Shown: positions 801 to 18,343 of the stretch, piece by piece
Layout of the letters: each line of letters opens with the position of its first letter
Numbering within the stretch: position 1 is the stretch's first letter
Virus record (IMG/VR): IMGVR_UViG_3300032307_000927
Span: 1-21,083 of that record
Direction: 5' to 3' (one strand)
Length of the DNA: 21,083 nt
DNA from: a virus
The notes under the pieces: model-generated
Database searches by the model: none
What the model saw: only the letters and a program-made list of their open reading frames with translations
Told to the model about the DNA's origin: nothing
Program-made: the position numbers and the translations under genes

Positions 801-2021
801 ATGATAAAAGAATATTTCAAGAAGTTTTACGGAATGACCCCCTACATCAATATCGATGAGAAGGAGTGGAGCTACATTCTCAAAACATTTCAAAAAGAGG
901 AAATTGTAGAAACTCTATCAGAAGTCCTACACACTTATCCCCCACCAATTCCAATCATAACCGAAGAGGAAACAATTGATGCATATCGTAAACTAAAAGG
1001 GACTTGGTGGCCTGATATTCTAGTTGAAGGTGAGTGGTTTCCTCGTAATGAAAGAGAGTCCACATATCCACTTACATTTGGTGGTAGTAACTATTACTTC
1101 AAACGAAGTAATGTTGGTAATAACGCATCCAATCCTTTTCACATTGAAAACAGATGGAAGGTAGATTGGTCTAGAACTCCATCAGGTTGGAAGACATGGC
1201 AAACCGTAGATGGTATCAAAACAATCGTAAGAGCATTCTTTACATTGGAGCAAGTTTTAACCGATGTGAATAAAGAAACTTTGAAGATGGCAACTACATT
1301 GAGAAAGTATGTAGCATCACAATTCAAACCCGTAATAGCAAAGGCATTTTATGATAGATTTCAAAGTGAGAATGTATTAGATTTCTCTGCGGGTTGGGGT
1401 GATAGATTATGTGGGTTCTTTGCAAGTGAAACTGGCAAACACTATGTTGGTATAGACCCTAATTTGGATAATCATCCTAACTATACTAAACAAATAGAGT
1501 TCTATCAAAAGCATAAAACATTTTTTGAGAATGATAAAACTGCTGAGATGATACCAATGCCGGCGGAAGATGTAGATTATTCAAAGTATGAAAACTTCTT
1601 TGATACAATCTTTACATCACCGCCATATTTCAATACAGAAAAGTATTCATTGCACGATACACAAAGTTATCTACGATATAAGAAGATAGATGATTGGAAC
1701 ACAAACTTTTTACATAAAACAATTGATAAACTTATTCCAACATTAAAAGTTGGAGGTATATTGGCAGTGAATATTGCCGATGTATATTCTGCGCCTGATA
1801 AAGGATATGTTGATATAGTAAACTCTATGAATGATTTTATTAAATCAAAAGGATTGGATTATATGGGTTGTATCGGAATGGAAATGACTAAACGATTTAA
1901 TTCAGGCGGAGCAGGTAATGCTAAATCAGAATACTTTGCAGAAGAATTAAAAGAAAAAACCCAACAGAGTAAAAACCAAGCATTTGGTGAGCCAATTTGG
2001 ATGTGGAAAAAAACTAAATAA
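801..2021 (+). CDS. Orphan DNA methyltransferase (SPPY type)
   Basis: A 406-residue amino-methyltransferase that would use S-adenosylmethionine to methylate adenine N6 or cytosine N4 in DNA. The cofactor-binding motif is DFSAGWGDR at residues 194-202, followed by GIDPN. The catalytic motif is TSPPY at 272-276. The cofactor motif comes before the catalytic motif, which is the alpha/gamma order. The first 160 or so residues are rich in W, P and Y and may form a target-recognition domain; I do not recognise it. No restriction gene is adjacent, so it is best seen as an orphan enzyme protecting phage DNA or marking it. It is the first gene after a host-type promoter, suggesting early expression. 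ATG 801 gives an almost leaderless message; a second in-frame ATG at 834 is an alternative start. The methylated base and target site cannot be read from the sequence. Confidence 0.8.
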   Translation: MIKEYFKKFYGMTPYINIDEKEWSYILKTFQKEEIVETLSEVLHTYPPPIPIITEEETIDAYRKLKGTWWPDILVEGEWFPRNERESTYPLTFGGSNYYFKRSNVGNNASNPFHIENRWKVDWSRTPSGWKTWQTVDGIKTIVRAFFTLEQVLTDVNKETLKMATTLRKYVASQFKPVIAKAFYDRFQSENVLDFSAGWGDRLCGFFASETGKHYVGIDPNLDNHPNYTKQIEFYQKHKTFFENDKTAEMIPMPAEDVDYSKYENFFDTIFTSPPYFNTEKYSLHDTQSYLRYKKIDDWNTNFLHKTIDKLIPTLKVGGILAVNIADVYSAPDKGYVDIVNSMNDFIKSKGLDYMGCIGMEMTKRFNSGGAGNAKSEYFAEELKEKTQQSKNQAFGEPIWMWKKTK

Positions 2022-2053
2022 TTTATCATACAATTAAACACAAATCAGTTAAG

Positions 2054-2947
2054 ATGAACTTAGGATACGCTTGTATTAATATGAGTATGGGTAAGAAAGT
2101 TACCACTAATCGAGCAATGGTTAAAAGGACTTTCGAAGCAAAAGGTTTAGATTATGTTTCCGAACTTGCGTTAGCAAATGCAAAGGATATCATTAAGATA
2201 TTGGAATGGAACCGAATGAATGGTATTAAACTATTCCGCCTTTCATCCACTATTGTACCGTGGGGAGATCATTTAGACCTTACACAATTAAAAGATTACA
2301 AAGAGATTAAATCGGAGTTAAAAAAGGCAGGTGATTTTGCTAAGTTTTGGGGTATGAGAGTTAACTCACATCCAGGTCCTTTCGTAGTTCTTACTTCACC
2401 GAATGAGGAGGTGGTAAAAAACGCAATTGCTGATTTGGAATTGCATGCTAAAATATTCGATATGATGGAATTATCTAAAACTCATTACAACAACATTAAT
2501 ATCCATTGTAATGGGGTATATGGAGATAAACAATCTGCGATGGATAGGTTTATCCAAAACTTCCAAAGACTCTCCCTATCGGTACAAAAACGATTGACGG
2601 TGGAGAATGATGATAAGGCTTCTATGTATTCCGTTAAAGACCTTATGTACATTCACAAAAATACAGGTATCCCAATTGTATTTGATTATCACCATCACCA
2701 ATTTTGTACAGGTGGATTGAGTGAAGAAGAAGCAGTTAAATTAGCAGCAACAACTTGGCCGAAAGGAATTAAGCAAGAAGTACACTATTCAGAAAGTAAA
2801 GCATTACATGAAAACAATCCAAAAGAAAAACCGCAAGCCCACTCCAGTTATATTAATGCCCTCCCCAATACATACGGGTTGGATTTGGACATTATGGTTG
2901 AAGCAAAAGCAAAAGAGTTAGCAATATTACCTTTCATACAAAAATAA
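2054..2947 (+). CDS. uvsE: UV-damage endonuclease (UvdE/UvsE)
   Basis: A 297-residue TIM-barrel nuclease that nicks DNA 5' of UV photoproducts and starts an excision repair path independent of UvrABC. Family landmarks are present in order: GYACIN at the N-terminus, FRLSS at 61-65, SHPGP at 105-109, INIHCNG around H151, VENDD with E184, FDYHHH with D211 and H214, VHYS with H244, AHSSY with H263 and E283. Together these account for nearly all metal ligands of the three-metal centre known from the Thermus enzyme. One difference stands out: the family Lys two residues before the H244 equivalent, carboxylated in the Thermus structure, is Glu242 here. Length matches the bacterial enzymes. The gene sits 5 bases before the thioesterase and two genes before thymidylate synthase, in a DNA-maintenance operon. 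A light-exposed habitat would fit. Confidence 0.92.
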   Translation: MNLGYACINMSMGKKVTTNRAMVKRTFEAKGLDYVSELALANAKDIIKILEWNRMNGIKLFRLSSTIVPWGDHLDLTQLKDYKEIKSELKKAGDFAKFWGMRVNSHPGPFVVLTSPNEEVVKNAIADLELHAKIFDMMELSKTHYNNINIHCNGVYGDKQSAMDRFIQNFQRLSLSVQKRLTVENDDKASMYSVKDLMYIHKNTGIPIVFDYHHHQFCTGGLSEEEAVKLAATTWPKGIKQEVHYSESKALHENNPKEKPQAHSSYINALPNTYGLDLDIMVEAKAKELAILPFIQK

Positions 2948-2952
2948 ATAAT

Positions 2953-3312
2953 ATGAACTTTAGAACAAGGAAGTTAATTAAGTACGAAGACCTCAATGCA
3001 AGGGGAACTCTTTTTGGTGGACAGGTGTTGAAGTGGATAGATGAAGAAGCATCCATATTTTGTATCTGTCAGTTAGGTACTAGAAGTTTAGTTACCAAAG
3101 CAATGAGTGAAGTGAACTTCGTATCATCTGCTAATTTGGGTGATATTGTGGAGATAGGATGTGAACTAATATCATTTGGTAATACATCTATAACAATAGC
3201 GTGTGAGGTACGAAACAAAGATACAAAGAAAACAATTATACGAATAGATAAAATTGTATTCGTAGCAGTAGATGAAAATGGGAAACCCAAACCACATGGA
3301 ATTACAAAATAA
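2953..3312 (+). CDS. Hotdog-fold acyl-CoA thioesterase (YciA/BFIT-like)
   Basis: A 119-residue single hotdog domain. The signature DLNARGTLFGGQVLKWIDEEA (written in parts: DLNARGTLFGG at 13-23, QVLKWIDEEA at 24-33) matches the central helix and loop of the YciA / cytosolic acyl-CoA hydrolase group. N15 and D30 are the residues expected at the active site. The later VNFVSSANLGDIVEI stretch is the usual second half of the hotdog. Family members hydrolyse acyl-CoA thioesters and work as oligomers. The gene is packed between uvsE and thyA with 4-5 base gaps, so it is a true operon member. Its role in infection is unknown: altering host lipid or CoA pools is one idea, and a non-lipid thioester or a binding role is another. 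Assignment to the fold is strong; substrate is not known. Confidence 0.85.
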   Translation: MNFRTRKLIKYEDLNARGTLFGGQVLKWIDEEASIFCICQLGTRSLVTKAMSEVNFVSSANLGDIVEIGCELISFGNTSITIACEVRNKDTKKTIIRIDKIVFVAVDENGKPKPHGITK

Positions 3313-3316
3313 TAAT

Positions 3317-4399
3317 ATGAATATTTTAGATGATAACTACAAACAACTCCTATTAGATATTATTCGTAATGGAGTTGAAAAAAAGGATAGAACAGGAACT
3401 GGAACTCTTTCAGTATTCGGTAGACAAATTCGTCACAAAATGAGTGAAGGATTTCCCCTACTCACTACAAAGAAAATGGCATGGAATGTCATGGTTGCCG
3501 AACTCCTATGGTTTCTAAGAGGAGATACTAATATCAAGTTCTTATTAGATTATGATTGCCATATTTGGGATGGTGATGCTTATAAAAACTATGCAGCCAA
3601 AACATCAATGGATGTAGATGGACAACTTACAAAAGAAGAATTTATCAAAGAGGTCAAAACCAATAAAGTATTTGCAAAACAATGGGGTGATTTAGGACCA
3701 ATTTATGGTAAGCAATGGAGGCAGTGGGGTGGGTTGCAAGATTTGACTGATGACGATACACCAATCTATTTAGACCAAATCACAAATCTAATCAATGAAC
3801 TTAAAACTAATCCAGATAGTAGACGATTGATGGTAAGTGCTTGGAATGTTGGAGAATTAGATCAAATGGTACTTCCACCTTGTCATTATGGATTTCAAGT
3901 TTACACAAGAGTATTAGATGAAACAGAAAGAGTTGTATTGATGGATAAGAAATTAGGAGTTACTGAAAACTTTCCTCCATATTACACCGAAGATGAAATG
4001 GTAAAACATAACATCCCTAAAAGAGCAATCTCTTTAATGTGGAACCAACGAAGTGTAGATACATTTTTAGGATTACCATTTAACATTGCTTCCTATGGAT
4101 TGTTATTGGAAATTATTGCTAGAGAAGTAGGTATGATGCCTGATGAGATAATTGGTAATTTAGGGGATGTGCATTTATACAAAAATCACATTGAACAGGC
4201 GGAAGAACAAATCAGTAGAACACCATACGGATTACCATCAGTACAGATTACCGAAAGAAATTGGTATCAACATCAATTAGTTAAAGAACACTTGGGTGAA
4301 AAAACATTTAGTGAAAAGATACTTTCTTATAGACCAGATTGTTTTGAGTTAATTGGTTATCAATCACACCCAAAAATCAAAGCACCACTTTCTAACTAA
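3317..4399 (+). CDS. thyA: Thymidylate synthase, enlarged ThyA
   Basis: Makes dTMP from dUMP with methylene-tetrahydrofolate, feeding phage DNA synthesis. Key motifs are DRTGTGT at 24-30, FPLLTTKKM, ELLWFLRGDTN, GPIYGKQWR, and the active site PPCHYGFQ with catalytic Cys189. Substrate-binding DSRRLMVSAWN and LPFNIASY are also intact. At 360 residues it is about 96 longer than the E. coli enzyme. The extra length is in two places: roughly 40 residues before GPIYGKQW, and about 44 residues between the YTR that follows the active site and the WNQRSVD motif. Both stretches are in frame and look like protein insertions, not an intron. The start at 3317 follows the previous stop by 4 bases; an in-frame ATG at 3272 would overlap the thioesterase and lacks homology to the family N-terminus. 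No intron like that of T4 td is present. Confidence 0.95.
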   Translation: MNILDDNYKQLLLDIIRNGVEKKDRTGTGTLSVFGRQIRHKMSEGFPLLTTKKMAWNVMVAELLWFLRGDTNIKFLLDYDCHIWDGDAYKNYAAKTSMDVDGQLTKEEFIKEVKTNKVFAKQWGDLGPIYGKQWRQWGGLQDLTDDDTPIYLDQITNLINELKTNPDSRRLMVSAWNVGELDQMVLPPCHYGFQVYTRVLDETERVVLMDKKLGVTENFPPYYTEDEMVKHNIPKRAISLMWNQRSVDTFLGLPFNIASYGLLLEIIAREVGMMPDEIIGNLGDVHLYKNHIEQAEEQISRTPYGLPSVQITERNWYQHQLVKEHLGEKTFSEKILSYRPDCFELIGYQSHPKIKAPLSN

Positions 4400-8503: not shown

Positions 8504-9142
8504 ATGAAAGCATTACTTAAATTAGACTTAAAAACTATACTAATTATAGTTTTACTCGCAGTTGTTATATTCTCTCAATTCTTTGGTGGTAGTAAGGAAG
8601 AAGTTGGTGATATAGTAAAAGTAGATGGTAAAAAGTACGAATTGTTAAAGCATACAATTGATACTGTTTATCAAGAAATAGAAGTGGAAGTTCCTACTTA
8701 TGTACCTGAATATATTACAAAGATAGAAACGGTCGAAGTGCAAATCCCAGCAAATGTAGACTCATTAAAAATTATAAAAGATTATTTTTCAAAGTACGAA
8801 GTTAAAGATACTTTAGTATTGGAAGGATTAGGTAAGGGATATATTGTTGATGTAATTTCTCAAAATAAAATAGAAAGTAGAAACATTAAGTGGGATTATA
8901 AAATACCAACTATATTGGATACTAAAATTGTAAAAGAGCTTCCAAAAAATCAATTGTACTTAGGATTGAATACTAACTTTGATAGAGCTAATGTAGTGAA
9001 CTCAGTTGGTATCGGTGCTATATTCAAAACTAAAAGAGATAGGATATTTCAGTTGAATACTGGAATTGCTAATTCTATAACAGGTGAAACTCAACCTTTT
9101 GTTGGGGGTGGTATATATTGGAAACTTAAACTTCGTAAGTAA
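8504..9142 (+). CDS. Single-span periplasmic protein with beta-rich C-terminus, spanin-like
   Basis: 212 residues. Residues 9-28 are one uncleaved-looking hydrophobic helix after KALLKLDLK, so the bulk is probably periplasmic. The middle (about 50-115) has alternating charged strand-like segments (YQEIEVEVPTYVPEY, ITKIETVEVQIP). From 145 on, strands separated by short turns (NQLYLGLNTNF, SVGIGAIFKTKRDRIFQLN, QPFVGGGIYWKLKLRK) look like outer-membrane beta hairpins. A protein fixed in the inner membrane and reaching or entering the outer membrane would fit a spanin, and the gene follows a holin-like gene. This is inference: it has no lipobox and does not match a spanin family I know. Other phage envelope proteins are possible. 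Confidence 0.5.
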   Translation: MKALLKLDLKTILIIVLLAVVIFSQFFGGSKEEVGDIVKVDGKKYELLKHTIDTVYQEIEVEVPTYVPEYITKIETVEVQIPANVDSLKIIKDYFSKYEVKDTLVLEGLGKGYIVDVISQNKIESRNIKWDYKIPTILDTKIVKELPKNQLYLGLNTNFDRANVVNSVGIGAIFKTKRDRIFQLNTGIANSITGETQPFVGGGIYWKLKLRK

Positions 9143-9143
9143 T

Positions 9144-10568
9144 ATGAAGAAATCTTTAAGTATAAAATCACTGATTTCGGAAATTATTATGAAAGAACAA
9201 ATGAAGGATAAGTATACTCCAACTGTGTTGGTTCTATCATCAATGACTTCTGACTCTAAAGGTACAATCGGTAAACTAAAAAAATCTTGTGAAAAGTTTG
9301 GATTACCTTTCTATGCAATCCGTTCTAAAAGTGCGTTTATCGATACAACACAAAACTCCAAAAACTCATTAAGAATTGAAAATTATAATGGTAATGGAGA
9401 TGTTTTGCTCATAAACCCAAGAAAAACTATTTGTTTTGTTAGGGGAAGTGCAATTAAAACAGAAGTGGGTTCCGCACTTATTCATATAATGGAAAACTAT
9501 GGTGTATTTGCGGTAAATGATTATAAGTCCATGCAATTTTGTTCAAACAAACTTGCTTCTATGATTGAATTGGAAAGAAGAAATGTACCTATTCCAAGAA
9601 CTGCTTATGTTCCATCAACAGAAAATATTGATGTTGCTCTAAAAAAGATTGGTGGAAAGTTTCCAGTTGTTATAAAAACAATTACAGGTGCTGAAGGCAT
9701 TGGAGTTTCAATTGTAGACTCATATCAATCGTTAAAATCTGTTTTACAATCTCTTTGGAAATATGAGGCTGAAGTTCTTATTCAAGAATATTTTGATGTA
9801 AAATTTGATGTTCGTACATTAGTACTTGATGATAAAATTATAGCGAGTGCAAAACGAGTAAGAGGTTCATCTGATTTTAGAACCAACTTAGCATTGGGTA
9901 ATAGTGGAGGCCCACACAAACTTACAGATATTGAAAAGGAAACGGTATTAAAAGCCGCAAAAACATCTGGAGCTTTTTATGTTGCAGTTGACCACCTTTT
10001 AGTAGATGGAAAGCCGTATGTATTGGAACTAAATGGTTCTCCTGGATCAGCAAATATCTATACCAACTATTATAATTCGGAGGGAGATAGTTCAACTGTG
10101 AGTGGGCAAGAATTAATTGATAATGTTGTAGAATATATTTCAGATAAATCAAATTGGGAAATAAGTGTAAATGAAGCGGGTGTAGTTGAAAATGTGAAAA
10201 TAGAGGGAACCCATTACGAAGCAAAATTAGATACTGGAAACGCAGGTCATTCTTCACTACATGCAACTGATATTAAAATAGAAGAAGTTGATGGTACTAA
10301 AATGGTTAACTTTGTAGATAATTCAGGAAAAAAAATAAGCAAACCATTGATAACTATCGCTAGAGTAAGGTCTTCGCCAATTTATGAAGCCGATTCGAGA
10401 CCTGTTATCGAAATGGATGTTAGTTTTAGAGGTCTTGAATTTAAGAGAGTTCAATTCAATTTGGTAGATAGAAGTAATAATACATATCCTGTCCTTTTAG
10501 GTGCAAGGTTTCTAAAAAGAGCTAGAGTTTCAGTAAATCCAAATAAAACATTTGTATTACCTGATTAA
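9144..10568 (+). CDS. RimK-like ATP-grasp ligase fused to retropepsin-like protease domain
   Basis: 474 residues. Start at 9144, one base after the previous stop; an earlier in-frame ATG at 9084 would add 20 residues lying inside the upstream gene and is rejected. The N-terminal part is a RimK-type pre-ATP-grasp domain. The ATP-grasp spans about 130-330: FPVVIKTITGAEGIGVS is the nucleotide-binding loop, VLIQEYFDVKFDVRTLV follows, and LELNGSPGS holds the metal ligands E295 and N297. RimK ligases add glutamate or other amino acids to peptide C-termini. From about 355 the protein switches to a RimB / Zn_protease (PF05618)-like domain: KLDTGNAGHSSLHA with the D363-T-G triad, then RPVIEMDVSF and YPVLLGARFLKRA. 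This domain family is built like a retropepsin half. A ligase and a protease acting on the same substrate in one chain would be a modify-and-process enzyme. The target protein is not known. Confidence 0.8.
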   Translation: MKKSLSIKSLISEIIMKEQMKDKYTPTVLVLSSMTSDSKGTIGKLKKSCEKFGLPFYAIRSKSAFIDTTQNSKNSLRIENYNGNGDVLLINPRKTICFVRGSAIKTEVGSALIHIMENYGVFAVNDYKSMQFCSNKLASMIELERRNVPIPRTAYVPSTENIDVALKKIGGKFPVVIKTITGAEGIGVSIVDSYQSLKSVLQSLWKYEAEVLIQEYFDVKFDVRTLVLDDKIIASAKRVRGSSDFRTNLALGNSGGPHKLTDIEKETVLKAAKTSGAFYVAVDHLLVDGKPYVLELNGSPGSANIYTNYYNSEGDSSTVSGQELIDNVVEYISDKSNWEISVNEAGVVENVKIEGTHYEAKLDTGNAGHSSLHATDIKIEEVDGTKMVNFVDNSGKKISKPLITIARVRSSPIYEADSRPVIEMDVSFRGLEFKRVQFNLVDRSNNTYPVLLGARFLKRARVSVNPNKTFVLPD

Positions 10569-10779: not shown

Positions 10780-11172
10780 ATGAGTGCAGAATTTGAACTT
10801 TTTCCTGGAAAGAATTTAAGTGGTCTTTTTCAGGATATATACACCAATCAAATTACCAAAAAAGAAAGAATATCTAAGTTTATAGAGGATCTAAAATCCA
10901 AAATAAAACACAATGGGGATGTTGCAATAATTGGACCTATAATTAAAGATTTGATTGATACTTCGGTTAAGAATGATGACCATTTAGTTAAGTTGGCAAC
11001 TATTGCACAAAGAATAATGTTGGCAAACAATAAGGGTAGTGGTGATGATGGATTTTTAACAGATGAAGAAAAGGCACAACTTTTGAATGATTTGCAAGAA
11101 GCTAAAGAGGAAGTTGAAAAAATGGATAATTTAGCAGTAGAAATTGATGAACTTAAAAAGAAAATAAAATAA
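10780..11172 (+). CDS. Baseplate-region protein with C-terminal coiled coil (130 aa)
   Basis: Opens with SAEFELFPGKNLSGLFQDIYTNQITKKE, then mixed helices, and ends in a charged heptad-like helix (residues 92-130, QLLNDLQEAKEEVEKMDN...). Its stop (TAATG) overlaps the start of the spike gene by one base, so the two are translated together. First gene after terminator and candidate late promoter. Not recognised; it could be a structural partner or chaperone of the spike. Confidence 0.6.
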   Translation: MSAEFELFPGKNLSGLFQDIYTNQITKKERISKFIEDLKSKIKHNGDVAIIGPIIKDLIDTSVKNDDHLVKLATIAQRIMLANNKGSGDDGFLTDEEKAQLLNDLQEAKEEVEKMDNLAVEIDELKKKIK

Positions 11173-12401
11173 TGGGTGGATTAGGAAGAGCTTCAACATT
11201 AAGTAATTTATCATCTCAAACTACTCAAATACCTGGAAAAAAAATTGGTATTGTATATGATGTTATACTAGATGGTACACATCCACGTGCGGTTAATGAT
11301 AATGTTGGTACATTATATAATGGATGTATTTTATATAGAAGTGCAGATAATTTAATTGTTTCTGAAAATGATTTATCTATAGCATACCCCAGTGATAAAA
11401 ATTTTAAATCATTACCTGTTAAAAATGAATCAGTAGAAATTTACGAAATATCCAATGGACAGTTTGCATATAGAAGAATTTTCGAAAGTCCAAATCCATC
11501 ATTTTCATCGGATCCATCTACTATTTCAAGTGCATATAAACCAGTTACAGAAGAAGGTAATAATGCAAAAAATTATCAACAGACATTCGGTACTGGTATT
11601 ACCACTACAAATTTCGATGATAGTGTTAAATTTAATGGTTATGGAAATTACTACCAACCAGTTTCTGGGTTGCATAAATTAAAGTTATACGAAGGTGATA
11701 CTTTAATTGAAAGCAGATTTGGACAATCCCTTAGATTTAGTGGATATAATAATGTAGAAAACATAGTATCACCTACAATAATTTTAAGAAATGGAGAAAG
11801 TTCCAGAACTAAAAAACTTTCACCACGATTAAATATTGAAGAAGATATTAACAGAGACGGTAGTATAATAGTAATTGGTTCAAATCAGTATCAATTACCT
11901 TTTCAACCTGGAACTGTTAGTGATAGTGGTACATCTGATTTCGAAACTAAGCCAGATTCTTTCACAAACTTTCCATCAAAATTAATTGGAGACCAAATAC
12001 TAATAAATTCGGGTAGATTAATATTCTCAGCTAAAAATGCAGAAATGATTTTCTACTCAAAAAAGAATTACGGATTTATTTCAGATGGGGCAATGTCAAT
12101 TGATAATAAATTGGGTATTGATATTAGTGTTGGAGCGAATGTAAACATTGTGACAAACGATAGAGATATTGTAATGTTTACTGGAAATGGTTCTATATTT
12201 TTGGGAAGTGGTGATTTAGAACCAATAGTTAAAGGACAGCAATTGGTAAACATTTTATCAGAGTTAATAGATGCAATAGCAGCACAAACATTCTTAACTC
12301 CTTCTGGTCCAACTGCGGAAGGTCCAGTTAATGTTGCAGATTTTGGTAGTATAAAATCTAAACTAAATGATATTTTAAGTAAACTTAATCAAACTTCATA
12401 A
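11172..12401 (+). CDS. Central spike-like baseplate protein (gp5 type without lysozyme)
   Basis: 409 residues. Residues about 22-65 (KKIGIVYDVILDGTHPRAVND, then GTLYNGCILYRS) have the look of the OB-fold at the head of T4 gp5. The middle block has YEGDTLIESRFGQSLRFSGY at about 172-191, a pattern I associate with spike proteins of marine T4-like phages. From about 272 short strands repeat every 7-9 residues (GDQILINSGRLIFSA, IDISVGANVNIVTNDRD, GNGSIFLGSG), as in the triple beta-helix that forms the needle of gp5 and VgrG. It ends in a helical KGQQLVNILSELIDAI and a short tail. I see no lysozyme domain between OB-fold and helix, unlike T4 gp5. The two hydrolases lie two and three genes downstream. 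Call is by pattern; a structure prediction of the trimer would be the test. Confidence 0.6.
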   Translation: MGGLGRASTLSNLSSQTTQIPGKKIGIVYDVILDGTHPRAVNDNVGTLYNGCILYRSADNLIVSENDLSIAYPSDKNFKSLPVKNESVEIYEISNGQFAYRRIFESPNPSFSSDPSTISSAYKPVTEEGNNAKNYQQTFGTGITTTNFDDSVKFNGYGNYYQPVSGLHKLKLYEGDTLIESRFGQSLRFSGYNNVENIVSPTIILRNGESSRTKKLSPRLNIEEDINRDGSIIVIGSNQYQLPFQPGTVSDSGTSDFETKPDSFTNFPSKLIGDQILINSGRLIFSAKNAEMIFYSKKNYGFISDGAMSIDNKLGIDISVGANVNIVTNDRDIVMFTGNGSIFLGSGDLEPIVKGQQLVNILSELIDAIAAQTFLTPSGPTAEGPVNVADFGSIKSKLNDILSKLNQTS

Positions 12402-12715
12402 TGGCAGAAAATTTACCAAATCCGGAAGAAATAGCTAGACAAGCAGCAGAACAAGCAGCTGCTTTAGCTAAAGAAAAAATAGAAAAAGCAAAAGCTGCAT
12501 TTGAAAAATTGAAAGCATTGAAGGAAAAATTAAAAAATAAAAAACCACCTAAATTTCCTCCAACTCCTAAGTTTGAACCTAAAAAATTACCAAAAGAAGA
12601 GGTAAAAAAATTTAATAAACCTACACTTCCCAAGCAACGGTCTGTTCCTTCAATACCCTCGGTTCCTTCAGTACCCTCGGTTCCTTCAGTACCCTCGGTT
12701 CCTTCAGTACCTTAA
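12401..12715 (+). CDS. Helix plus proline-repeat protein (104 aa)
   Basis: Start overlaps the stop of the spike gene (TAATGG). Residues 7-47 are an Ala/Lys/Glu helix with coiled-coil spacing. Residues 48-75 are Lys- and Pro-rich (NKKPPKFPPTPKFEPKKLP). The end is P-S-(I/V) repeated: PSIPSVPSVPSVPSVPSVP, encoded by an 18-bp tandem repeat. This looks like an extended, rigid-to-flexible rod or tether. Sitting between the spike and two hydrolases, it might link them or cap the spike, but no family is recognised. The repeat can expand or contract by slippage, so length may vary between strains. Confidence 0.6.
   Translation: MAENLPNPEEIARQAAEQAAALAKEKIEKAKAAFEKLKALKEKLKNKKPPKFPPTPKFEPKKLPKEEVKKFNKPTLPKQRSVPSIPSVPSVPSVPSVPSVPSVP
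12647..12711 (+). repeat. 18-bp tandem repeat (PSVPSV coding)
   Basis: Three full units and a partial fourth of CCTTCAGTACCCTCGGTT, starting at 12647, 12665, 12683 and 12701. The first unit differs by one base (CAATA). The fourth stops matching at 12712, where the TAA stop forms. Each unit encodes P-S-V-P-S-V (first P-S-I-P-S-V). Confidence 0.9.
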
Positions 12716-12726
12716 TTATAACATAT

Positions 12727-14043
12727 ATGTCTTGGGAAATTTTTAAACAAAACGTTTTAAGAGTAGCGAATAATCCACAATCTATAGATGATATAGATAT
12801 TGTAGCTGAAACATACGCAAATGAATACGATGCTGCAGTTAAAAGAGGTGGTGATACTGTTAATTTAGTTTCTGTTAAAACTGGAAATGTTGAAGCCATG
12901 AAACAAATATTTAGAGCTGCTTTACAAAAAGGTTTAACATCAAATGTACCTTATGATTTAGTTGGAGAAATGGGAAAAGGTGTAGTTGCGTATTGGACAG
13001 GTGCAACTCTAAATGAATATCCAATACCAGTAGTACCCGCAATAGGTGCAGCTCAAAATGTAGGTGTAACATCGAATATCGTAATTAATCCAGGAACTTG
13101 GGCACCTGTATTAACCGCACCTTCTATTGAGTTTCAACTAACACCTGAAGAAAAATTAGACTACGAAAATAGGTTACAGATTGAAATTTCTAAATATGAA
13201 ACTGAAGTAATTACGAGTCCTCCTGACATATTAGAAGCAAGAGAAGACACAATAAGTAAGTTTACTGGAATAATTGAAAACAATGAAAATTATAGAGTAG
13301 ATATACCATTTCCTTCTCCAATCGTAACCACTGGTGCTAATATTGTTGATATTAATGGTAATGTTATCAATAAAGTTAGTCCCGCTACAAATTTTATTGT
13401 AAATGATGAAGAAGAAGATGATATTAGTGGAACTGGGCAAGATGTATTACCAACATTTCCAACTTTTCCACCACCACCAGTTCAACAAGGTAATCCAGAT
13501 TTATTACCAGGCGAATATATACAATATACACCATATTTACCTGCAGGTGCATCTGTAGCCGAAAAAGCAATTGCAATTGCACTAACTGATATTAAAAATG
13601 GAGTAAAAGAAGATCCTGACTCAAGTAACACTGGTCATCCTAGACTATTACAAATACAAAGAACTGCTGCTAGGTCAGAATGGACTAAGTTTCCTTGGTG
13701 TGCTTCAGCGGTATTTACTTGGTGGTATGAAGCAGGATTTCCGTTTGTTACTGATAAAAATGATCCTACTTATCTTGTAAATCCCAAACATTGTGTTAGT
13801 TGGCAGCAATGGGCAGTAGCAACTGGAAGATGGGTAGACAAACGAAACGGTGCAAATCCTAATTTTATTCCTAAAGCGGGAGATGCTGTTATGTATTCTA
13901 CGGATAACTTAACATTCGATCATATTGGTATGGTATATGAATTAAAAGATGGTAAATTAACAAGTATTGACGGTAATTACAAAAACTCAGTATCTTATAA
14001 TCTAGCATATACACGATATATTGCAGGTTATGTGCAAATATAA
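12727..14043 (+). CDS. Tail-associated CHAP-domain peptidoglycan hydrolase
   Basis: 438 residues. An N-terminal domain (1-125) with GGDTVNLVSVKTGNVEAMKQ and NPGTWAPVL resembles conserved N-terminal domains of structural proteins in marine phages. A Glu-rich linker follows, then at 220-249 an acidic/proline segment (DEEEDDISGTGQDVLPTFP) and a PPPP stretch. The C-terminal catalytic domain (about 275-438) is CHAP/NlpC-like: FPWCASAVFTWW with Cys325, FDHIGMVYE with His399, and SIDGNYKNSVSY. Such domains cut peptidoglycan amide bonds. The N-terminal half and the location beside spike and wedge genes point to a virion enzyme used at entry, not a free endolysin. The acidic/proline segment is almost repeated in the next gene. 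Cutting site on the peptide is not known. Confidence 0.75.
   Translation: MSWEIFKQNVLRVANNPQSIDDIDIVAETYANEYDAAVKRGGDTVNLVSVKTGNVEAMKQIFRAALQKGLTSNVPYDLVGEMGKGVVAYWTGATLNEYPIPVVPAIGAAQNVGVTSNIVINPGTWAPVLTAPSIEFQLTPEEKLDYENRLQIEISKYETEVITSPPDILEAREDTISKFTGIIENNENYRVDIPFPSPIVTTGANIVDINGNVINKVSPATNFIVNDEEEDDISGTGQDVLPTFPTFPPPPVQQGNPDLLPGEYIQYTPYLPAGASVAEKAIAIALTDIKNGVKEDPDSSNTGHPRLLQIQRTAARSEWTKFPWCASAVFTWWYEAGFPFVTDKNDPTYLVNPKHCVSWQQWAVATGRWVDKRNGANPNFIPKAGDAVMYSTDNLTFDHIGMVYELKDGKLTSIDGNYKNSVSYNLAYTRYIAGYVQI
13384..13472 (+). repeat. Direct repeat copy A (acidic/proline linker)
   Basis: 89 bases matching 14518-14606 with 6 mismatches, and with a perfect 57-base core at 13404-13460. It is in frame in both genes (offset 1134 bases) and encodes ATNFI-x-x-DEEEDDISGTGQDVLPTFP. 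The flanking protein sequence is not related between the genes. Confidence 0.95.
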
Positions 14044-14058
14044 TAAAAATTATTTAAA

Positions 14059-15309
14059 ATGGCAGCAATAAATCCAACCGATGTTACCGCATTAATTGTA
14101 GATGAGTTTATACGAAATGCAACTACGCACTTAACTACTGTTAGTGGAATTGTAAATACACTATCTTTATATCCGCCAATACCAACTCCATCACCTGGTA
14201 TAACAAATTGGACAGGTTATACAATACCACCTGCTGCTAGAGTAACTAATGAGTTAAGGGATAGAATAATTTTAAACGAAATTTTAGCAAAACCAGATGA
14301 TGCTAACATTCAATTAGAAACTGATCCGGCAGTAAATAAACAATTTAATGACAATAAAAGTAATATATCTGGATTTAGAGTAGACCCAGAAGCAGGTGGT
14401 TATGGGGAAGTTGTTACGGACTTAACTGAAGCTAAACTTTTAGCTCCAGCAGCAGTACCATTAAGTTTAATTTATTCAAATTTAGTTAATCTTCCATCCA
14501 CAACTACATTACCAACTGCTACAAATTTTATTGCAAGTGATGAAGAAGAAGATGATATTAGTGGAACTGGGCAAGATGTATTACCAACATTTCCTGTCTT
14601 TCCACCTCCTGATCCGGTTACATCTGGACTTAATGAGGATCCAAACTCCCCTGCGTTTGGTGCAACTGTATCATTTGGAAGGTTATCAGTAAGAGAGGGT
14701 GGCGGGTTAATTTCAATTGGAGAAGATAAAGCAATCGGTTTAACACGAGAACAATATTTAAGAACTCTAAATTTTGAAGATGGACTGCAAATTGCTAATG
14801 TTGATATGAGTGCAGAATGGAGTGTAATAGCAAGGCAATATCTTGTAAAAAAAGAAGGATTTTCACCAGGACCCGCAAAAAATGATGAGGGAAAACTACG
14901 ATTGGGATATGGTACTGATCGGATTTTGGACATAGGTGCAACTTTTCCACGCGAAGTTAAAGCAGGTGATACCACAACTAAAGAGCAGGCAGGTAAGGTA
15001 TTGGAACTACAAGTACGAACTACTTATAAAGATAAAGTAGTTGGTACATCCGATATCCACATAACAGAAGCAGATTGGAATGCATTAAATAATCCACAAA
15101 GAGCTGCGCTGATATCTTTTGTTTATAATTGTGGAAGTTTTACATATTATCCACATATTCCTGCTGCAATTAAAGCGAAAGATTATGTTAAAGCTGCAAA
15201 TGGATTACTAAATGGACCGATAGGTGGTGCTCAATCTGGAAATATATACTCAGGCTTGGTTAGGAGAAGAGCTGAAGAAGCAGGAATGTTTATTTATGGA
15301 TTACAATAA
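14059..15309 (+). CDS. Tail-associated GH24-type lysozyme
   Basis: 416 residues. The N-terminal 150 residues are unlike the previous protein and not recognised. Residues 154-183 carry the shared acidic/proline linker, followed by PPPDPV. After a middle region, the lysozyme domain runs from about 255 to 416: YLVKKEGF with the general-acid Glu266, LRLGYGTD around 283-287, NPQRAALISFVYNCG, and a C-terminal RRRAEEAGMF. These are T4 lysozyme landmarks, so it should cut between MurNAc and GlcNAc. The catalytic neighbours differ from T4: with a gap-free alignment, Asp20 is Asn (an Asp is next to it) and Thr26 is Arg. The R-x-G-Y-G variant may be a known subgroup. Location after the CHAP gene suggests a second virion hydrolase that would replace the lysozyme domain of gp5, but a role as endolysin cannot be excluded. 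Confidence 0.75.
   Translation: MAAINPTDVTALIVDEFIRNATTHLTTVSGIVNTLSLYPPIPTPSPGITNWTGYTIPPAARVTNELRDRIILNEILAKPDDANIQLETDPAVNKQFNDNKSNISGFRVDPEAGGYGEVVTDLTEAKLLAPAAVPLSLIYSNLVNLPSTTTLPTATNFIASDEEEDDISGTGQDVLPTFPVFPPPDPVTSGLNEDPNSPAFGATVSFGRLSVREGGGLISIGEDKAIGLTREQYLRTLNFEDGLQIANVDMSAEWSVIARQYLVKKEGFSPGPAKNDEGKLRLGYGTDRILDIGATFPREVKAGDTTTKEQAGKVLELQVRTTYKDKVVGTSDIHITEADWNALNNPQRAALISFVYNCGSFTYYPHIPAAIKAKDYVKAANGLLNGPIGGAQSGNIYSGLVRRRAEEAGMFIYGLQ
14518..14606 (+). repeat. Direct repeat copy B (acidic/proline linker)
   Basis: Second copy of the 89-base repeat at 13384-13472; perfect core at 14538-14594. Third-codon positions are unchanged through the core, so duplication or gene conversion is recent or ongoing. 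Confidence 0.95.
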
Positions 15310-15366: not shown

Positions 15367-15867
15367 ATGGATACTGATAAATTATTAAAAGCTATTCAAA
15401 TTTTGGTTGAAGCTGAAGTTAAAAAACAATTACCTAAAATTGTAGCTGAAGTTGTGGGCTCAACTCAAAAGAGGAGAATGGTTGAAAATACAAAAGAAAC
15501 TCCAGCAACTACTGTAAAGAAAACTCCATCTATTGCTAAAGCGATATTAGGAGAAACTAAAGTAAATAAGGTAACCGATGTTCAATACACTAAAAATCCA
15601 GTATTGAACCAGATACTAAATGAAACGAGAGCAAACACTTCGTATGCAGGGGGAACTGAAAGTGGTTATGAAGAATGGCCTACTATGAATGCTTCAATAC
15701 CAACTCCATCAAACGGAATGGATATTAATAGTGTTCGTTCTCAAATGGCATCTAAAATGGGATATGGTGATATGAATACAGGTGGAGGTTTAGGTGTAAA
15801 AACTGGAAACGAAGCATTGGATAAAGCATTGAACCGAAATTATAGTGAGTTGGTAAAAAGATTTTAA
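15367..15867 (+). CDS. Unknown baseplate-region protein (166 aa)
   Basis: A helical N-terminus (LLKAIQILVEAEVKKQL) is followed by a low-complexity, Thr/Lys-rich stretch and the segment IAKAILGETKVNKVTDVQY, then Gly- and Asn-rich sequence ending in SELVKRF. Soluble, probably partly disordered. I do not recognise it. It starts a likely transcription unit and is followed 2 bases later by the gp25-like gene, so it is probably a virion or assembly protein. Confidence 0.6.
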   Translation: MDTDKLLKAIQILVEAEVKKQLPKIVAEVVGSTQKRRMVENTKETPATTVKKTPSIAKAILGETKVNKVTDVQYTKNPVLNQILNETRANTSYAGGTESGYEEWPTMNASIPTPSNGMDINSVRSQMASKMGYGDMNTGGGLGVKTGNEALDKALNRNYSELVKRF

Positions 15868-15869
15868 TT

Positions 15870-16298
15870 ATGGCTGTAGTATTAGGTAGTAAAAAAGTTC
15901 AAGATTTAGAGCAATTTAATGATACTGCAATTGGTATTACATTACCTTTGCAAATAACTAATACTGCCTTCAATCAATCATTTCAAACTATAGATCAAGT
16001 TAGGACTAATATTAAATCATTACTTTTAACTAAACGAAGGGAAAGAGTAATGCAACCTTTTTTGGGTAGTGGACTAACTGAATTGTTGTTTGAGCAAAAC
16101 GATGAAGAGTTAGAAGAAAGAATTGAAAATACTATCGTACAATCTTTACAAACTTGGCTACCTTATGTTGTTATAGATACTATAATAATAGAACAAAGTA
16201 ATGAATTAAAAGATAGAAACTCTGTAGAAGTTTCAATTACATTTAGGATAAATGGAAACCCAACATTAGAGACTGTTACTTTTAATGTAGAAGAATAA
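15870..16298 (+). CDS. gp25-like baseplate wedge protein
   Basis: 142 residues, close to T4 gp25 (132). The block ITLPLQITNTAFNQSF is followed by TNIKSLLLTKRRERVMQPFLGSG, which is the gp25/TssE signature around the P-x-x-G-S-G-L motif, and by FEQNDEELEERIENTIVQSL. In T4, gp25 joins the wedge to the sheath initiator and is the nucleus for sheath polymerisation. The gp6-like gene starts 5 bases downstream, the same pairing as in contractile systems generally. Confidence 0.85.
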   Translation: MAVVLGSKKVQDLEQFNDTAIGITLPLQITNTAFNQSFQTIDQVRTNIKSLLLTKRRERVMQPFLGSGLTELLFEQNDEELEERIENTIVQSLQTWLPYVVIDTIIIEQSNELKDRNSVEVSITFRINGNPTLETVTFNVEE

Positions 16299-16303
16299 AA
16301 TAG

Positions 16304-18343
16304 ATGGCAACTAACAACACAGTAAATAACAATTTTAGGAATAAAGGAAAAGATATTAAATATCTAAATACAGATTTTGCTGGATTTAGAGAAAATTTAA
16401 TAGAGTTTTCTAAAACATATTTTCCAAAAACTTATAATGATTTTAATGAAACATCTCCTGGTATGATGTTTATAGAGTTATCATCATACATTGGTGATGT
16501 ACTTGCATATTATGTAGATGATACTTTTAAGGAGTCATTATTACCATTTGCGGAAGATGAAAGAAGTATTATTGCATTAGCACAATTTTTAGGTTATAAG
16601 CCAAAGGTAACATCACCAGCTTTAACAACACTTTCTGTATATCAATTAGTACCTTCAGTTGGAACAGGTCAAAATAATGTACCAGATGAAAGATTTTATT
16701 TAAGAATACGTGAAGGAATGCAAGTAGAGTCTACAACTAATACCATCCAATTTACAACAACTGATATTATTGATTTTGGGGATCCATTTGAGCGAGAAAC
16801 TATTGTATATAGTAGAGATGTAAACACTGGCGAACCTAATTTTTATTTAGTAAAAAAGCAAATTCAAGCAGTCTCATCAACAATAGTTGAGAGACAATTT
16901 ACATTTGGTACATACGAGCCATTTAGAACAATTACATTACCTGAAACAGATGTTATTCAAATTTTAGATGTTAGAGATGCTAATGGAGCTAAATATTATG
17001 AAGTTCCGTATTTAGGACAAGAAATGGTTTTCATTAACGAAACCAATACTATATCAAATAGTTCTGATTTATATCAGTTTAGAGATACTGTTCCATACCT
17101 ATTGAAAACTCTAAAAACCGCTAGAAGATTTACACTTAAAATAAACGAGAATAGAACTACTACTATACAATTTGGTGCAGGTGATCCATCTGCAAGTGAT
17201 GAACAATTAATTCCAAATCTTAAAAATGTTGGATTAGGATTGCCTAATTCAATTAGTAGATTGGAAGAGTCATTTGATCCAACAAATTTTTTAAAAACAA
17301 AAACATATGGAACTTCTCCATCAAATACAACTATTACTGTTAGATATTTAGTTGGAGGTGGTATTAATAGTAATCTATCACAAGGAACACTAACTACTTT
17401 AGCTGGTGTTCAATTTGAAGAAGACCTTTTAACATTTAATGCAAGCCAAAGGATAGTATATAATCGAGTTAAAAATTCACTAGCGGTAGATAATGAAGTA
17501 CCGGCCGTTGGTGGTAGAGGTCCTGAAACTTTGGAAGAAATTAGACAAAATGCATTAGCTAATTTTGGTTCTCAAAATAGAGCAGTTACTGCAAGAGATT
17601 ATCAAGTTAGAGCGTTGTCTCTTCCTGCAAAATATGGTGGGATTGCGAAAGCGTATGCAAGTGCGGATGGTACATTGGATAATAACTCACCATCTTCAAT
17701 CCTTGCATCTCCAAACTCTTTACAACAATTTACTGATATAGTAATGGATTTTGTGGAAAGAGCGGATAGCAATGAACCAAGTGAAGGTGAAGTAAAAGAG
17801 CAGATTAAAAATTTTCTAATAGGAAAAACTGATAATGTAAATGAAACAAATAATCCATTTGCAATTAATTTATATCTTTTGGGATATAATCAAAATGGAA
17901 ATTTAACACCTATTAATAAAGCAATAAAACAAAATCTTAAAACATATCTAAATGAATACAGAATGTTAACAGATGGTGTTAATATTTTAGATGGATTTGT
18001 TGTTAACATAGGAGTTGAATTTGAAGTGATTACATTGGAGGGATATAATAAGAGTGAAGTTGTTACACAATGTATAAATGAAATTAGAAACTTTTTTCAG
18101 ATAGACAAATGGACTTTTAATCAAACCATTAATCTTAATGAATTAGAATTAGTTATAGCAAATGTAGAGGGTGTGTCATCGGTTCCCAAATTACATATAT
18201 CAAATAAGTGTAGAGGACAGTATTCTATAAATTCATATAATATTGATGCGGCTACAAAAGATAAGATTATATATCCATCTTTAGACCCTTGTGTTTTTGA
18301 AATTAAGTTTCCGAATTCGGACATTAAAGGAAGAGCAAGATAA
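16304..18343 (+). CDS. gp6-like baseplate wedge protein
   Basis: 679 residues, close to T4 gp6 (660). The N-terminal part has the gp6 signature: DIKYLNTDFAGFRENLIEF, ETSPGMMFIELSSYIGDVLAYYVDD and ALAQFLGYKP. The middle holds ESTTNTIQFTT and FGAGDPS, and the later NALANFGSQNRAVTARDYQV is the baseplate-J-like signature shared with phage Mu and P2 J proteins. gp6 dimers form the ring that ties wedges together and opens on sheath contraction. It follows the gp25-like gene, and its stop overlaps the next start (TAATGG). Confidence 0.9.
   Translation: MATNNTVNNNFRNKGKDIKYLNTDFAGFRENLIEFSKTYFPKTYNDFNETSPGMMFIELSSYIGDVLAYYVDDTFKESLLPFAEDERSIIALAQFLGYKPKVTSPALTTLSVYQLVPSVGTGQNNVPDERFYLRIREGMQVESTTNTIQFTTTDIIDFGDPFERETIVYSRDVNTGEPNFYLVKKQIQAVSSTIVERQFTFGTYEPFRTITLPETDVIQILDVRDANGAKYYEVPYLGQEMVFINETNTISNSSDLYQFRDTVPYLLKTLKTARRFTLKINENRTTTIQFGAGDPSASDEQLIPNLKNVGLGLPNSISRLEESFDPTNFLKTKTYGTSPSNTTITVRYLVGGGINSNLSQGTLTTLAGVQFEEDLLTFNASQRIVYNRVKNSLAVDNEVPAVGGRGPETLEEIRQNALANFGSQNRAVTARDYQVRALSLPAKYGGIAKAYASADGTLDNNSPSSILASPNSLQQFTDIVMDFVERADSNEPSEGEVKEQIKNFLIGKTDNVNETNNPFAINLYLLGYNQNGNLTPINKAIKQNLKTYLNEYRMLTDGVNILDGFVVNIGVEFEVITLEGYNKSEVVTQCINEIRNFFQIDKWTFNQTINLNELELVIANVEGVSSVPKLHISNKCRGQYSINSYNIDAATKDKIIYPSLDPCVFEIKFPNSDIKGRAR

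Follow-up and report, generated by a model that had tools for sequence, protein, structure and literature searches.

Two adjacent genes in the tail cluster of a virus record probably encode a modular rack of baseplate hydrolases, in which anchored carrier proteins present their enzymes on linkers that are matched by concerted evolution. The window analysed here is the whole of the record IMGVR_UViG_3300032307_000927 (21 kb; 21,083 nt). The products of the two genes, designated A and B, would be adjacent carrier proteins of a contractile-tail baseplate. Conservation and gene order suggest that each is attached near a lysozyme-free spike by an N-terminal anchor of its own, and each would bear an exchangeable peptidoglycan hydrolase at the C-terminus of a long flexible linker. 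In phages that combine a CHAP enzyme on A with a GH24 enzyme on B, the linkers hold a phage-specific segment predicted to be disordered (the tag), whose two copies are probably kept alike by short-tract copying between the genes together with purifying selection on the amino acids. The features of the region are as follows.

10780..11172 (+), p130, a conserved 130-aa protein upstream of the spike, within the syntenic block (100% identical in L004 and 58–68% in more distant loci)
11172..12401 (+), lysozyme-free spike with a modelled N-terminal OB-fold; remainder modelled poorly
12401..12715 (+), gap protein, 104 aa, Ala/Lys-rich, with a Lys-Pro motif and a VPS repeat
12727..14043 (+), gene A, anchor, linker and CHAP domain
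12727..13116 (+), A anchor, residues 1–130, conserved and independent of the enzyme
13384..13476 (+), matched tag, copy 1, A residues 220–250, predicted disordered
13552..14040 (+), CHAP domain of A, Cys325/His399/Asn417
14059..15309 (+), gene B, anchor, linker and GH24 lysozyme
14059..14235 (+), B anchor, residues 1–59, conserved
14518..14610 (+), matched tag, copy 2, B residues 154–184
14851..15279 (+), GH24 (Phage_lysozyme) domain of B, Glu266/Asp276 (PF00959, 5e-12)
15367..15867 (+), p166, a conserved 166-aa protein between B and gp25, present at almost every locus of the group
15870..16298 (+), gp25-like baseplate wedge protein (PF04965, 1.5e-13)
16304..18343 (+), gp6-like baseplate wedge protein (phrog_219, 5e-21)

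Spike gene and gene order of the tail cluster

The spike gene at 11172 gave no match in Pfam and PHROG searches, a sequence-profile search found no solved relative of its product, and comparison with a viral structure library gave nothing clear. The AF2 monomer model contains the N-terminal OB-fold of gp5-type spikes at residues ~22–104 (pLDDT ~77) and is of low confidence beyond residue 105. The structural neighbours of this OB-fold were phage, PVC and VgrG spikes as well as other OB-folds, with Z < 8. No lysozyme-like helical domain was found in the model, which is itself weak outside the OB-fold, and the absence of lysozyme is therefore based mainly on the family searches together with the lack of such a domain. 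A lysozyme hidden within the spike chain was rejected accordingly, since none appeared by Pfam, by PHROG or in the model. A previous sequence-only reading of this DNA had described a spike-like protein that appeared to lack lysozyme and a proline-repeat protein encoded between spike and enzymes. The first point was borne out within the limits of the partly weak model, and the second is seen in the 104-residue gap protein at 12401, which ends in the VPS repeat.

Relatives were collected as 63 IMG/VR loci that carry both A and B, with near duplicates removed. In this set (the first 60 listed in detail), the order p130, spike, often a gap protein, A, B, p166, gp25 and gp6 recurs, and the gap protein is found in many relatives but not in all. 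The A and B genes are thereby placed by gene order in the tail/baseplate cluster, between the spike and gp25/gp6, and the two proteins are candidates for a place in the virion. In two relatives (L068 and L084), the gap protein has an apparent peptidoglycan-binding repeat, as judged by eye. In L020, L022 and L034, which have no gap protein, the A and B linkers contain KPRF-x-PK-like motifs that resemble the PKFKPKKLP motif of the gap protein.

By their gp6 proteins, the nearest named phages are Microcystis phage Mel-JY01 (40% identical) and Flavobacterium phage immuto (37%). Both have a p130-like gene, spike, gp25 and gp6 in the same order; in the position of A and B, Mel-JY01 has a GH19 gene and immuto only a gene resembling that of the gap protein. 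They differ from the present group in that neither an A nor a B anchor was detected in them. Searching an annotated phage collection gave no matching record for A, and B matched in its lysozyme part only. The A anchor was found in no cultured phage searched, nor was a cellular or prophage copy found among species genomes.

Conserved N-termini and exchangeable enzymes

The CHAP fold is papain-like with a Cys-His-(Asn/Asp/Glu) site. A itself had no match in the Pfam search, and Pfam CHAP matched 17 of 45 relatives of A. The AlphaFold model of A resembles CHAP/NlpC-P60 structures, including the CHAP domain of LysK, with Z of about 11, and the viral structure library returned CHAP-type matches only. 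Cys325, His399 and Asn417 are invariant in 28/28 CHAP relatives. Judging from the modelled fold and these invariant residues, A is a CHAP amidase/endopeptidase. B is a GH24 phage lysozyme as far as the PF00959 match and the Glu/Asp pair indicate, Glu266 and Asp276 being invariant in all 18 GH24 relatives. The two separate hydrolases that had been read downstream of the spike, CHAP with Cys325/His399 and GH24 with Glu266, are thus both in place with conserved residues. Arg281 of B (window 14899–14901) is likewise invariant in the 18/18 GH24 members; in a manual register, we take it to occupy the position expected for the catalytic Thr26 of T4L.

Throughout the group, both proteins have conserved N-terminal parts (residues ~1–130 of A and ~1–59 of B), while the C-terminal domains change enzyme class, in agreement with the modular arrangement proposed before. 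An alignment of 38 A anchors has 37 invariant columns and a mean column identity of 67%. Enzyme classes were defined as sequence-similarity clusters labelled from Pfam totals and by eye, so that single assignments may err; on this basis, the cargo of A among the 63 loci is CHAP in 28, M15 types in 26 and an amidase-like class in 9. B carries a glycosidase in 41 of the 63 (GH19 in 21, GH24 in 18 and a third, putative class assigned by eye in 2) and otherwise M15 types or the amidase-like class. Glycosidases are confined to B and the CHAP cluster to A, and either protein can carry M15 or one amidase-like class. A would accordingly cut peptides and B usually glycans, and both types of wall bond might be opened when the tail punctures the cell wall.

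In two non-redundant phages (L030 and L038), B consists of the bare anchor, a protein of 69 residues. In L090–L094, the A anchor is split over two genes, residues ~1–90 with an M15 enzyme and ~91–130 with CHAP, followed by B with GH19; three enzymes consequently stand in a row (L090:1463–4311, and likewise in L091–L094). The bare B, the split A and the changing cargo indicate that the N-termini are maintained separately from the enzymes, and for this reason they are read as anchors. Gene order suggests that both sit in the baseplate. A sequence-profile search found no solved relative of the A anchor, and the results of a structure search with the A model were filled by the CHAP domain, so that none bear on the fold of the anchor. 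Comparison of the A and B N-termini by hhalign gave a probability of 0.3%; no relation between them was detected, as noted earlier from the sequence, and a common origin was rejected.

The catalytic domains of the A/B group match endolysin families, as they would if both proteins were ordinary endolysins that lyse the host and whose genes stand among the tail genes by chance. This explanation is most improbable in view of the constant place between spike and gp25/gp6, the long conserved anchors, the B anchor that occurs without an enzyme, the presence of two enzymes per phage, and the seven A members that also match the PHROG family "baseplate hub subunit and tail lysozyme".

An enzyme-free protein of 175 residues occupies the A/B position in LR756508, an uncultured 484-kb phage (L237:4040–4564). 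It scored 12.9 bits against a profile of the joined A and B anchors, compared with a maximum of 10.6 in 5000 shuffles. The alignment is mostly A-like and the B-like part is a short match, which is suggestive only of a possible ancestor or of joined A and B anchors.

A linker segment matched within phages

The linkers of A and B contain a direct repeat of 92 nt (13384–13475 and 14518–14609) with 92% DNA identity, in frame in both genes. The encoded tags are identical at 28/31 residues, which substantiates the earlier observation that A and B share a segment despite unrelated N-termini. In A, the tag lies just upstream of the catalytic domain and is predicted to be disordered (pLDDT 28–44). The window holds two copies and no more, and each of six records searched contains the tag exactly twice; a third copy was looked for in neighbouring proteins and elsewhere in these records, and none was found. 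One subgroup keeps a core, GKPF-V-x-GF, in both genes, and a scan with its motif GKPF located A/B loci only. Relatives of the segment are A and B genes of the same cluster, and not free endolysins.

Matching was scored outside the anchors and enzymes in 61 phages, with a score of at least 75 taken as a shared segment. By this threshold, 33/61 phages share a segment between A and B. It is present in 18/18 phages with CHAP+GH24, in 6/6 with the same enzyme twice and in 4/5 with CHAP+M15a; the fifth of the latter, L129, in which B is short, reaches 86 when the sequences are left unmasked. All five M15a+M15b phages have a segment, but it is weak and not best-ranking. A matched segment is found in 0/21 phages with GH19 on B, and several other phages are also unmatched. 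Scores between different phages reach 101 at the 95th percentile (median 36), and the weaker matching classes therefore overlap the background.

The tag differs between phages, and its A and B copies match within each CHAP+GH24 phage. In this class, the within-phage A/B match scores sum to 3903, whereas 10,000 permutations averaged 1631 and did not exceed 2500. The own partner was within the top 2 among 61 in all 18 phages, and 15/18 were mutual best matches in the group. Across phages, the similarity of the A tags and that of the B tags are correlated with a Spearman coefficient of 0.955. Allowing for gp25, the tag showed partial correlations of 0.35 with the spike and 0.32 with the gap protein; these are weak and come from ten uncorrected tests on related phages.

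Closely related phages show that both tags are replaced in parallel. Between L016 and L166, the A anchor, CHAP, B anchor and GH24 are 95, 97, 95 and 95% identical, respectively, and the A and B tags only 54 and 43%. The same trend is seen in L003, L004 and L005 (CHAP 95–98%, tags 32–50%), and DNA comparison of L016/L166 and the others agrees with that of the proteins. Exchange of one block is contradicted by this pattern, since the CHAP domain and B anchor that lie between the two tags remain ~95% identical while both tags differ. It would be explained if one tag was replaced and then copied into the partner gene, or if each of the two was replaced under selection.

Synonymous differences between the tag copies range from 0.19 to 0.57 (pooled pS 0.34) and saturation, as seen in the A anchors, is at ~0.58; this points to recent copying in most phages. 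Copies within a genome are more alike than orthologues between genomes, with synonymous similarity beyond saturation except in L025, as in concerted evolution. These synonymous sites, together with exact DNA runs as long as 65 nt shared by the two tag copies, the frequent exchange of enzyme classes, and a whole enzyme common to A and B in six phages, would also be expected of a recombination seam without function, i.e. a patch of homology for enzyme swaps that is homogenised by gene conversion as the genes adjoin. We consider this explanation somewhat unlikely. The pooled dN/dS of the tags is 0.35 (0.26–0.44) rather than ~1 and resembles the relation in the conserved anchor; it comes from simple Nei-Gojobori counts over a small number of sites in each phage, and would be no different if each linker were under purifying selection by itself, so that selection for matching is not separated by it. 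Moreover, in L025 the residues are still 83% identical at saturated synonymous sites (pS 0.57; 30 sites), and in every matched phage the two copies, aligned as proteins, share one reading frame. DNA copying and protein-level constraint thus both appear to act on the tags. A DNA-level role of the repeat is unlikely, as the proteins still match in L017 and L025, where the exact runs measure just 13 and 21 nt.

Possible roles of the matched linkers and relation to known systems

A shared binding groove, a cleavage site and a mere recombination seam are candidate roles of the matching. The earlier proposal was that the segment docks both enzymes: by binding a single site, whether of the spike, the gap protein or the baseplate, it would load them on the tail. 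The matching of the pair within each phage, the protein-level constraint, the core kept in both genes of one subgroup, its weak correlation with the spike and the gap protein, and the restriction of the segment to A and B are all compatible with this proposal. However, the anchors of both proteins persist without the tag in L030, L038 and all GH19 phages, and no third protein carries or visibly mirrors it. Docking by the tag is therefore unlikely as its main function. The conserved N-termini are the better candidates for docking parts, because B can be an anchor alone and the 21 GH19 phages lack a shared linker; the latter also indicate that the tag is not a general attachment device and that the family can do without matching. 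The segment may still play a lesser part in docking, for example with both linkers on the same spike groove.

In T4 gp5, two linkers run along the spike, and one of them holds the cleavage site (PMC3004832). The latter precedent, and the disordered place of the tag directly before the catalytic domain in A, would suit a recognition site for one protease in both linkers, by which the enzymes are freed together on penetration, much as gp5 is cleaved during maturation in T4. This is improbable; a candidate protease was not identified here, and the tag differs so strongly between near-identical phages that the protease would need to change equally fast. The course of the T4 linkers along the spike, together with the disorder of the tag and the weak covariation, leads us to prefer, with low confidence, a common partner or surface. 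In the anchored-carrier arrangement, matching would most likely arise because both linkers are placed on one partner or handled by it, such as equivalent grooves of a trimeric spike, in the way that the gp5 linkers of T4 follow its beta-helix. More speculatively, the tag may be a phage-specific identity code, an address borne by both enzymes and suited to a partner that evolves along with it (spike groove or gap protein); when the code changes, it would do so in the two genes at once. We rate this as rather unlikely.

The present system resembles T4 gp5 in having an OB-fold spike gene in the baseplate cluster and, as proposed, hydrolases kept close to the spike through long linkers (PMC3004832), but the lysozyme of T4 lies inside the spike chain, whereas here the enzymes are on two proteins of their own and none was detected in the spike. 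The hub protein gp15 of Anabaena phage A-1(L) likewise provides a baseplate with lysozyme-like, endoglucanase and peptidase domains; in the part of that report available to us, all are described in one hub chain, unlike the separate carriers and matched linkers considered here (PMC10966104). The needle protein gp5 of phage P1 also has no lysozyme domain, but in that phage the tape measure protein, rather than neighbouring genes, is credited with the enzyme activity (PMC9024508). As in other cases of concerted evolution by gene conversion, copies in one genome are closer to each other than to orthologues elsewhere; the difference is that this is confined to the linker region of a pair of genes that are otherwise unrelated, for which we found no phage precedent in the literature with the terms used.

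For these tail-associated hydrolases on separate carriers, an unusual arrangement, both the modularity and the concerted evolution of the linkers are well supported. Such an arrangement would give a contractile tail exchangeable wall-opening enzymes, on peptidase and glycosidase carriers, with the spike left untouched. The exchanges that have occurred in nature show at which boundaries such enzymes were swapped, and the matched linkers, as an unusual case of concerted evolution, offer a direct test of whether disordered tail linkers carry specific information.

Compared with L004, the stretch 11172–15309 forms an island of divergence, in which the spike, A and B are 72, 80 and 64% identical, respectively. 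Around it, identity to L004 is 100% for p130, 99.6% for an upstream ATP-grasp-like gene and 98% for gp25. The long open reading frame at 9084–10568, which adjoins the tail genes, appeared by eye to contain an ATP-grasp part and a protease-like tail. Consecutive genes at 801–4399 were likewise recognised by eye as an apparent DNA methylase, a UV-damage endonuclease-like gene, a thioesterase and a thymidylate synthase.
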